Below, in pieces: positions 9,717 through 20,361 of a DNA stretch of 64,000 nucleotides (positions within the stretch are counted from its first letter, which is position 1; every line of letters starts with the position of its first letter). The notes under the pieces are model-generated. The model did not search any database. It worked only from the letters and a program-made list of their open reading frames with translations, and was not told the origin of the DNA. Source of the DNA: Dehalococcoidia bacterium (GTDB lineage: Bacteria > Chloroflexota > Dehalococcoidia > Lucifugimonadales > UBA3495); NCBI GenBank assembly GCA_022827095.1, contig JAJDTP010000005.1, positions 124,001-188,000 on the forward strand. Reading direction: 5' to 3'. The position numbers were made by a program, and so were the translations under genes.

Positions 9717-10790
9717 TCACCCCGGAATCTCTATCTTCTCCGTCACCACCCGAGTCACTCCCCAGCCGGCCAGCCAGGCGGAGTGGCGTCCGTCGCCCCC
9801 GGCCACAACCACCACGATGTCGTCGGCCTGGAGCGAGATCGGCACCATGGTATTCGGATCCTCGTCGTTGACCCAATCCGGGTAGTTTCGGTTGCCCCAA
9901 TGTCCCAGCCCGGACAGGTCGGCGATTGACATGCGCGCGTTGGCGAACACGTACTCCCGGACATCCTGCTTGGTGAACCCATCCGCCGCCATTTCTGCCG
10001 CGTGCTCGGGGCTGATCACCAGCGTCACCTGCGCCCCCGTCCCGATCTGGTAGAAATTGGAGAAACCCGTGGCCCGGGTCGCCTGCACCAGCGTGTTGAG
10101 CACGTCCGTGCCCCGGGACACCGTGGTTTCCATGACCGGGTAGAAGGCCCGGATGGCGTGCAGAGTCACCATGCTGTCTTCCGGGTCCAACCCCAGCTCC
10201 ACGTGCCTCGGCTCCCACGGGCTCCGCGCCTCGTTCTCGGCGAAGCAGAAGGAATAGCGGCCCGGCATCGCCAGAGTAGCCTTGTCCATGTCGCCGATGA
10301 TCAGCCCGGCCACGTTGCGGACGAACAGGCGCAGCGCCCGGCCGATAGTCGCATTAGCCCGGTAACCGGGACCGAACGCGCCCGAGTCGCCGTTGATGCC
10401 CAACCGTTCCGCAATGGGCCCGTTGACGATTACCACCGGAGCGGCGCCGCCCGTGGTGGCCTGGCACCCGGCCAGGTTGAATGACGTCTGCAGGACTGCT
10501 TTCACGCAGGCCACCACCACCGGAAAGTACTCCGGTCGACAGCCGGCCATCACCGCGTTGATCGCGACCTTCTCGATGGTGACTTCCGAGTTGGAAGGCT
10601 GGGCTATGCCCAGGGACAGCGAGGGGTCTTCGCCCCACGGGCCGAGCATCCGTTGCACGGCATCCTCCGTGGCCGGAACGACGGGCATCCCGTCGGTCCA
10701 TCCCTGTTCTTCGTAGTAGTCCTGGATCGCGTCGTAGGTGTCAGGCACGGTGATCCGGCGCGAGTTCAAGGCTCGACTGTTGGTTGTCAT
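9717..10790 (-). CDS. Conserved protein with GWTDGxPVVPxT motif
   Basis: 357-residue protein of a conserved family of unknown function that I recognise by its N-terminal GWTDGMPVVPATEDAV and the central NGPIAERLGINGDSGAFGPG and GRALRLFVRNVAG blocks. Cysteines sit in two conserved contexts (VMAGCRPEYFP and NLAGCQATTGG) and could be functional. No signal peptide or membrane segment is visible. The start is ATG 10788-10790; an upstream in-frame start would lie inside the neighbouring gene. It overlaps the end of the phosphatase-like gene by 50 bases and precedes the HigA-like gene by 8. It is two genes downstream of the UGSC selenoprotein. Function unknown. Confidence 0.75.
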   Translation of the reverse strand: MTTNSRALNSRRITVPDTYDAIQDYYEEQGWTDGMPVVPATEDAVQRMLGPWGEDPSLSLGIAQPSNSEVTIEKVAINAVMAGCRPEYFPVVVACVKAVLQTSFNLAGCQATTGGAAPVVIVNGPIAERLGINGDSGAFGPGYRANATIGRALRLFVRNVAGLIIGDMDKATLAMPGRYSFCFAENEARSPWEPRHVELGLDPEDSMVTLHAIRAFYPVMETTVSRGTDVLNTLVQATRATGFSNFYQIGTGAQVTLVISPEHAAEMAADGFTKQDVREYVFANARMSIADLSGLGHWGNRNYPDWVNDEDPNTMVPISLQADDIVVVVAGGDGRHSAWLAGWGVTRVVTEKIEIPG

Positions 10791-11559
10791 AAAGTTCACT
10801 CTTCTGCGGTGGATTTTGCGGCGGGTCGCCGGTGGACAGATCGGCGAGGACGCCGAAATGGTCGGACAGGCGCCGTTCTCCGTCCATATTGTCAATCGTG
10901 GTCAGGGATGCAGCGGATAGTTCTCCGCTGATGGCGATATGGTCAATGGCGCGCCGGCCCCGCAAACCAAGTCCGGCGGTCGCGATGGTCAAGCCTGGCG
11001 TTGGCCCGGCAAGCATGGTTTCCTGCAATTGGGCACGCGCCGGACGAGAAAGCGGCGGGTAAGGCCTTCGGCGTTGCCCAATTTGCTGGTTGAAGTCGCC
11101 CATCAGGATGAGCGGACCGGGTGCCTGACGTTCCAGGATTGCAGCGAGGCCACCGAGATACGTGGAGTGGTCTTCCCACGGTTCTTTGTTCTTGGCGCCG
11201 ACGTTCACATTGGCGTTGTGATAGGGGATACAAACGCCAATCACTGTTACCTCGCCCGCCGACGTTTGCGTGGTGCCGGCGATGAAACGTCCCTTGGGTA
11301 AAGCCTCGCATCCAACATCATCAACATCAGTCCACCCGCAACGCGACCAAAGGAGCACTTTCTGTTGATTGCTCCCGGCTGACGGACTCCAACGATCCCG
11401 GGGAGAGATCAAGTGCCCGTCCCACTCCGACAACAGCCTTGCGTCTGTCTCCGTGAGGCAGATGATGTCCGGACAGTGCTCGGTAAGGCGGTCCAAAATG
11501 TAAGGGCTACGCGCTGCAGCGGGCGTAGCCCATTCGACATTCCAGTTGACCACTTTCAT
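10741..11559 (-). CDS. Endonuclease/exonuclease/phosphatase family protein
   Basis: 272-residue EEP-fold hydrolase, probably a metal-dependent phosphodiesterase or nuclease. Fold signatures: N-terminal VVNWNVEWA (metal-binding Asn), CLTETDARLL (metal Glu), LILMGDFNQQIG (catalytic Asp/Asn), IDHIAISG and the C-terminal LSDHFGVL (catalytic Asp-His). The substrate cannot be told. The C-terminal 30 residues past the catalytic His are low-complexity. No signal peptide. It lies 28 bases downstream of the selenoprotein gene on the same strand. Confidence 0.82.
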   Translation of the reverse strand: MKVVNWNVEWATPAAARSPYILDRLTEHCPDIICLTETDARLLSEWDGHLISPRDRWSPSAGSNQQKVLLWSRCGWTDVDDVGCEALPKGRFIAGTTQTSAGEVTVIGVCIPYHNANVNVGAKNKEPWEDHSTYLGGLAAILERQAPGPLILMGDFNQQIGQRRRPYPPLSRPARAQLQETMLAGPTPGLTIATAGLGLRGRRAIDHIAISGELSAASLTTIDNMDGERRLSDHFGVLADLSTGDPPQNPPQKSELYDNQQSSLELAPDHRA

Positions 11560-11587: not shown

Positions 11588-12127
11588 TTACTTCCCGTTG
11601 GTCAGCATCTCGGCGATCTGGCCGGCGTACTCGTGCGCCAAATGCTGCACTTCCGGTATCGACCGGGAGGCCAGGGGACTGGGCAACGCCAGGATTTGTA
11701 CGCCGGGCATTCCCAGCGAGGAGGCGCGGGCGTGCGCGGCCCGGGTGAAACTCTCGGTGATGACGCTAACGGATGGAATCCCGCGGGTTTCGGTAACTAC
11801 TGTGTCGTGGAGACCCCACGCCGTGCAGCTCCCTCAATCCGCGATGCCGTGCACCACCGCATCGCATTGCTCGATTAGCTCGTCAATGGTCTCGTCTGAG
11901 CAGGGGGCGCTGAAACTGAACTTCCGAAGGTAGACCACCTTCTCGACGGCGTACTCCTCCTCCAGGATTACCTGGAGTTCCTGCAGGAAGTTGTCGGAGT
12001 GGTACTTGCGGTTTTCCAGCAGACCGATGGTCTTGCCCGCCAGGCCGGGCAAGCGGCCCGCGGCATCCCGCTCCTCGGTCTTTTGCTCTGGACGCGGGTC
12101 CAGGATCTGGATGGTTGCGGTCGTCAT
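11588..12127 (-). CDS. UGSC-family selenoprotein (in-frame TGA read as selenocysteine)
   Basis: 179-residue protein if TGA 11834-11836 is decoded as selenocysteine at position 98. The N-terminal part (97 residues) contains GLAGKTIGLLENRKYHSDNFLQ and ends CDAVVHGIAD. Then follow TGA and GSCTAWGLHDTVVTETRGIP, giving the U-G-S-C motif of the family of that name, with Cys101 a likely redox partner of Sec98. The frame stays open for 81 codons to TAA 11588-11590 and keeps a Rossmann-like pattern (IPSVSVITESF). A hairpin with a GGTCT loop begins 13 bases after the TGA. The biochemical role of the family is not known to me. It is preceded by guaB3 and followed by the EEP protein. An automatic caller would truncate it at 97 residues. 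Confidence 0.88.
11806..11836 (-). promoter_or_regulatory. Bacterial SECIS element with its UGA codon
   Basis: TGA (11834-11836) is followed 13 bases later by a perfect 5-bp stem CGTGG/CCACG closing a GGTCT loop at 11811-11815. The loop starts 18 bases after the TGA, within the distance used by bacterial SECIS elements. As I recall, the GGUCU loop sequence also occurs in the E. coli fdhF SECIS. Expected to bind SelB in the mRNA. Confidence 0.78.
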
Positions 12128-19551: not shown

Positions 19552-20361
19552 ATGGCTACCGTTATCGACACCCATTGCCACGCCTCGCCCTACTGGTTCG
19601 AACCGGTCGAAATCCTCCTCGATGAGATGGAGCGGGCCGGCGTCGACCAGGCCGTCCTGACCCAGTTCTTCGGCGTCTTCGACAACACCTACCTGATCGA
19701 AGCGGTCAAACGTTTCCCCGGTCGGTTCGCCGTCATCGCCATCGTCGACCACACCCAGCCCGATGCGGTCGACCGCGTCGCCGAACTCAAGGATCAGGGC
19801 GCGGACGGCTTGCGTTTCCAGTGCTCGTGGAGGTCTCCTGGCGACGACCCTCTGGCCCTCTGGCGCAAGTGTGCCGAACTGGGCGTCGTCGCCAGCGTGA
19901 TGGGTCCCGCAGAACACTACGCCGCGCCGGAATTCGAGGAGATCATCCGCGAGTTCCCCAACCTGTCCATCGTGATCGAGCACTTGGCCGGCGTCGGCGC
20001 GTTCTGGGGCCCGGGCCGCGCGGATACGGAAATCCCAATGGACACCTACCGGAAAACCCTCGAGCTTGCCAGGTATCCCAACGTGTACATGAAGATACCC
20101 GGCTTGGGTGAGTTCTGCCCGCGGCCCCAACCCTTCCGCCAGCCGATACCTTTCGACAACATCCCGCCGCTGATCGAAATGGCGGTCGAGGCTTTCGGCG
20201 GTGACCGCCTTATGTGGGGCAGTGACTTTCCGCCCTCGGCCAACCGGGAGGGCTACCGCAACACCCTGCGTTTCCCCATGGAGCTGATCGACTACCCGAG
20301 CACGGAGGCGCGGGACATGGTCTTCGGCGGCACCGCGGCCAATCTCTGGGAATTTCGTTAA
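19552..20361 (+). CDS. Amidohydrolase-2 family protein
   Basis: 269-residue TIM-barrel metal-dependent hydrolase or decarboxylase of the amidohydrolase-2 group (as in ACMS decarboxylase-like proteins). N-terminal metal motif DTHCHASPYWF, a His in IVIEHLAGVG near residue 144, and the C-terminal Asp in LMWGSDFPPS near 225. Full length. It begins 12 bases after the SDR stop with GGGAGAGG before the ATG; the two probably act in one degradation pathway, but the substrate is unknown. Confidence 0.88.
   Translation: MATVIDTHCHASPYWFEPVEILLDEMERAGVDQAVLTQFFGVFDNTYLIEAVKRFPGRFAVIAIVDHTQPDAVDRVAELKDQGADGLRFQCSWRSPGDDPLALWRKCAELGVVASVMGPAEHYAAPEFEEIIREFPNLSIVIEHLAGVGAFWGPGRADTEIPMDTYRKTLELARYPNVYMKIPGLGEFCPRPQPFRQPIPFDNIPPLIEMAVEAFGGDRLMWGSDFPPSANREGYRNTLRFPMELIDYPSTEARDMVFGGTAANLWEFR

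Follow-up and report, generated by a model that had tools for sequence, protein, structure and literature searches.

An open frame of 179 codons on the minus strand of the window (the whole stretch of 64,000 nucleotides analysed) contains one in-frame TGA, closely followed by a short hairpin. Is this TGA read as selenocysteine (Sec), and is the hairpin the bacterial SECIS element behind such a reading? The initial annotation had favoured SelB-dependent decoding over a chance open frame, and this view is upheld here by covariation, a synonymous null model, Cys-containing homologues as a control and the Sec machinery genes of the genome. On this comparative sequence evidence, the hairpin is almost certainly a bacterial SECIS within the coding region of a UGSC selenoprotein gene, recoding UGA as Sec. 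The features concerned are as follows.

11588–12127, minus strand: UGSC-family selenoprotein gene, recognised by PF24696 and NF041046 matches and a frame spanning the TGA
11837–11839, minus strand: codon −1, GAT, strongly preferred before the Sec UGA
11834–11836, minus strand: TGA, predicted to be read as selenocysteine; kept in orthologues, with Cys at the same place elsewhere
11816–11820, minus strand: predicted SECIS 5′ arm CGUGG, pairing with 11806–11810; the pairing is kept by two-sided changes across relatives
11811–11815, minus strand: predicted SECIS apical loop GGUCU; G 11814 and U 11813 correspond to G23 and U24 of fdhF, and this GU is conserved
11806–11810, minus strand: predicted SECIS 3′ arm CCACG, pairing with the 5′ arm, with covariation
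9717–10745 (conserved part; gene 9717–10895), minus strand: partner protein, beside or fused to UGSC, with copies near every UGSC domain

The UGSC gene and the Sec machinery

The single TGA lies in the minus-strand context ...GCG GAT TGA GGG AGC TGC ACG GCG TGG GGT CTC CAC GAC ACA..., giving the motif HGIAD-U-GSCTAWGLHD with Sec as residue 98. With the TGA translated as Sec, the 179-residue product matches PF24696 (UGSC; E 1.1e-50, 172.6 bits, cut-off 25) and NF041046 (UGSC family (seleno)protein; E 2.7e-38, 131.3 bits, cut-off 125), and the segment after the TGA still matches the family by itself (E 1.2e-21). This downstream frame is conserved as protein in 50 genomes. The protein is matched in all 50 genomes of its taxonomic family, the listed matches each having one TGA, and the TGA is kept in 57 of 57 orthologues (about 40–99% protein identity to the window protein). 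In 18 homologous genes from other bacteria, the Sec site is Cys (TGC/TGT). The window gene and its 57 orthologues read TGA-GSC; the Cys homologues read C-GSC, once C-GAC.

UGSC-containing selenoproteins are listed as a family in a study of the marine metagenome selenoproteome (PMC2398784, 2008) and again in a review (PMC13188914). Family members have a profile score above the curated cut-off and Sec or Cys followed by Gly-Ser-Cys, and the window gene has both. It shares with the family (PF24696/NF041046) the profile match, the Sec-Gly-Ser-Cys motif and the replacement of Sec by Cys in some bacteria, with no difference of substance. The gene is thus an ordinary and well-supported case, a further member of an already described family, and the hairpin mechanism is likewise known. 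The case for TGA recoding is strong, and the gene should be annotated as one full-length selenoprotein, not as two fragments.

The genome (3.79 Mb, 97.65% complete) encodes tRNA-Sec with anticodon TCA, SelB (355.5 bits), SelA (540.9 bits) and SelD (376 bits). SelD itself has one in-frame TGA (L114, G000:C20:25694-26614, HCAGUAAKL). Seven UGSC genes are present in this genome, each with exactly one TGA; UGSC genes occur in 50 of 50 genomes of the taxonomic family, with up to 13 copies in relatives. A search of the available literature for UGSC in SAR202 returned nothing.

Position, fold and likeness to known SECIS elements

Re-measurement reproduced the hairpin first described at this site in both coordinates and sequence: a CGTGG/CCACG stem and a GGTCT loop that starts 18 nt past the TGA (11836–11834). 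Folding energy by itself is uninformative. The minimum is −12.8 kcal/mol for a 42-nt segment and −5.8 for the 15-nt hairpin alone, and dinucleotide shuffles fold equally well in 41 of 200 cases (z = −0.77), so the hairpin is unremarkable against shuffles. Of the 1,620 TGAs that the window has on its two strands, 2 are followed by a 5-bp stem in precisely this register whose loop contains GT. The second, at 20090 on the plus strand, looks like chance, since no recognisable family appears in the translation around it. No Rfam SECIS model matches the hairpin at gathering or permissive thresholds; elements so short are rarely covered. What lifts the hairpin above chance is the comparative evidence: synonymous sites that hardly vary, compensatory changes in the stem, and loss of the hairpin in homologues with Cys.

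Resemblance to the E. coli fdhF element is limited to spacing and loop bases and does not extend to the full structure. The initial annotation had compared the hairpin with fdhF, giving the same loop at about the same distance, and rightly so: in E. coli K-12 the fdhF GGTC, when measured, also lies 18 nt after the TGA. The two elements share the loop GGUC(U) and the identical 18-nt offset, and equivalents of G23 and U24, the bases of fdhF that SelB contacts, are present in the window. The bulged U17 in the upper stem that marks the fdhF type is absent here, where a C paired with G stands instead and the stem runs through five uninterrupted pairs. Unlike in fdhF, the lower stem of the window hairpin is not conserved.

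Agreement with the general bacterial consensus is complete, with all features common and no difference seen. The consensus (PMC13188914, Fig. 2) describes a loop N1-G-U-N-N2 with N1 and N2 pairable, a stem of at least 4 pairs and a spacing of 16–37 nt; the bSECIS constraints (PMC13188914) specify a loop of 3–9 nt, an upper stem of 4 bp or more, G within the first two positions of the loop, a distance of 16–37 nt from the UGA and a minimum free energy of at most −7.5. The window hairpin has a 5-nt loop, 5 bp, GG and an 18-nt distance, with −12.8 kcal/mol for the 42-nt segment. Further bacterial SECIS features are found as well: compensatory conservation, absence where Cys replaces Sec, and SelA, SelB, tRNA-Sec and SelD in the genome.

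The SelB/SECIS mechanism (PMC13188914) is sufficient to explain the hairpin. SelB in its GTP form, with Sec-tRNA(Sec), would bind the apical loop of the mRNA at the G-U of loop positions 2–3; with the ribosome at the UGA, which precedes the loop by 18 nt, SelB would deliver Sec-tRNA in place of release. The product would be a 179-residue protein with the Sec-Gly-Ser-Cys motif at a helix start in an alpha/beta fold. SelB binding and actual Sec insertion are what we infer from established SelB/SECIS knowledge.

Conservation, covariation and competing readings

Synonymous choice in the hairpin is nearly frozen. Among the 57 orthologues, codon +5 (Ala/Ser/Thr) has G as its last base throughout, Gly +7 and His +9 are invariably GGT and CAC, while Leu +8 is CTC in 56 and Asp +10 is GAC in 55. 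Codon entropy at +5 and +7 to +10 is 0 to 0.22 bits, against about 0.5 to 2.3 at most flanking conserved codons; Trp +6 has one codon only and so falls outside the comparison. Of 60 conserved degenerate codons tested, seven lie below 0.25 bits: the five of the hairpin, codon −1 and codon +26. A TGA orthologue without a hairpin at this position, named at the outset as the finding that would speak against a SECIS, occurs in none of the 57.

The wider family was compared through 70 distinct Sec relatives, a set of related sequences whose counts are not independent events: the full stem is present in 62 and the loop GU in 64 (loop nucleotide 20 is G in 65, nucleotide 21 is U in 66). When codons are drawn anew according to the usage of these genes, with the protein sequences unchanged (2,000 runs), full stems average 8.3 (maximum 19) and loop GU averages 6 (maximum 17). 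Stem variants include CGTGG/CCACG, CGTGC/GCACG, CGGCC/GGCCG, CGAGC/GTTCG, CCCGC/GCGGG, CGCGC/GCGCG and CGTAC/GTACG. The compensatory-change test suggested in the initial annotation was thus run and came out in favour of the SECIS, with 62 of 70 full five-pair stems and two-sided changes in 4 of 5 stem pairs, the latter among 15 representatives. The covariation score of these representatives is 0.619, against 0.173 for shuffled data (0 of 500) and 0.03–0.18 for slid registers, in a set hand-picked for the main in-register hairpin types and omitting out-of-register sequences. Because of that omission, the count on all 70 is the fairer measure. In that set no more than 2 sequences keep a full stem once the partner arm is shifted by 1 to 3 columns; a shift of −4 columns leaves 25, which probably come from sequence self-similarity.

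The five pairs in this register are missing in 8 of the 70, all more distant family members: L013 and L124 have one mid-stem mismatch, L171 has a single basal mismatch, and L139, L153, L155, L156 and L168 diverge further. A USTC-motif branch (11 genes, L145 and 10 similar, with long frames of about 550–1000 codons) was left out of the 70; by eye, in the one member L145, its loop appears one nucleotide earlier, as GGTC closed by CGGC/GCCG.

The Cys homologues serve as a control for the encoded peptide. A scan of the genome collection gave 17 loci with 18 genes in which Cys replaces Sec in a nearly identical peptide; the full stem is present in 3 of these 18 and the loop GU in none. Where residue +7 is Ser, its codon is AGT, which supplies the loop U, in 79 of 79 Sec genes and in 0 of 18 Cys genes (Fisher p 6e-20). 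The Cys homologues come chiefly from actinobacteria and other phyla, several of them probably GC-rich, and codon bias may lie behind part of their AGC preference; yet AGT is scarce in the rest of the Sec genes too, at 25 of 389 Ser codons.

These data bear directly on the competing readings. The hairpin could be a by-product of the encoded Trp-Gly-Leu-His-Asp, with the TGA a true stop or the gene a pseudogene; part of both arms does come automatically from the Trp and His codons, and the energy is ordinary against shuffles. Coding alone, however, gives a mean of 8 full stems in 70 under synonymous reshuffling against the 62 observed, the Cys homologues with their near-same peptide drop the loop U and keep the full stem in just 3 of 18 genes, and the frame beyond the TGA is conserved as protein in 50 genomes. 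The comparative data refute this reading, whose probability is negligible. Equally improbable is that the TGA specifies another amino acid, for example Trp through a changed code or a suppressor, while the hairpin serves some other role such as slowing the ribosome. Both UGA reassignment and regulatory hairpins occur in bacteria, but this genome holds a complete Sec machinery, the site exchanges with Cys and not Trp in homologues, each UGSC gene has one TGA, and the register and loop bases of the hairpin equal those of fdhF.

A further reading accepts the SECIS and extends it, taking the hairpin as the top of a larger element in which a lower stem plays a role as well. The folding program does draw an extra lower helix for the window segment, but in orthologues this part is free at synonymous sites (codons +1, +2, +4 and +11 to +14). 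Because these sites vary freely, the lower helix is at most accessory, and the longer element is unlikely, though less remote than the two readings above. The short coding-region SECIS with its five-pair stem is the preferred reading.

Within the Sec genes, the residues at +6 and +9 change as couples: W/H, C/H, A/A, R/R and Y/Y (L117, L151, L170, L180 and others). The linkage follows from base pairing between these two codons within the SECIS stem. On these family-wide data, a coding SECIS steers protein evolution, and protein-coevolution methods could misread the +6/+9 coupling as a structural contact.

Protein fold, partner protein and codon −1

The UGSC structure, predicted with a pLDDT of 95, is an alpha/beta sandwich in which Sec 98 starts helix 99–114, just after strand 90–96. 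The UxxC at the helix start would probably form a selenol/thiol redox centre, a guess from the model. Fold searching gave generic alpha/beta matches alone (receiver domains, lumazine synthase, flavodoxin-like proteins and dehydrogenases; the highest Z, 11.9, was with a designed protein), too general to indicate a function. Glycine and proline reductase entries are absent from the listed fold matches, an absence that is not evidence of unrelatedness. A PDB sequence search for relatives of UGSC or of its partner protein found nothing convincing.

The side results on the partner family and on codon −1 matter more than the hairpin. The partner (9717–10745) has no Pfam-A or NCBIfam match, and its seven copies in the genome are each found 106–999 bp away from a UGSC domain, of which there are likewise seven. 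At locus L016, partner and UGSC are fused in one open frame of 590 residues. Among 400 genomes of the phylum, UGSC is found in 42, the partner in 44 and both in 41; of the three genomes with the partner and no UGSC, two have very weak matches. It is somewhat more likely than not, then, that UGSC and the partner make up one two-part selenoenzyme, encoded either by neighbouring genes or as one fused polypeptide. If so, the two-part UGSC system would be an undescribed redox system with seven or more versions in some bacteria. An endonuclease/exonuclease/phosphatase-family gene (10741–11559, minus strand) separates UGSC from its partner in the majority of genomes in the genus and was not detected beside orthologues of other genera; it overlaps the listed start of the partner frame.

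Codon −1 shows a strong bias. It is GAT in 57 of 57 orthologues, and across all Sec genes read there are 123 GAT and 13 GAC at this position, against 117 GAT and 247 GAC at nearby Asp codons. The Cys homologues have 3 GAT and 15 GAC. A 5′-context effect on recoding versus release is a possible explanation of the GAT preference.
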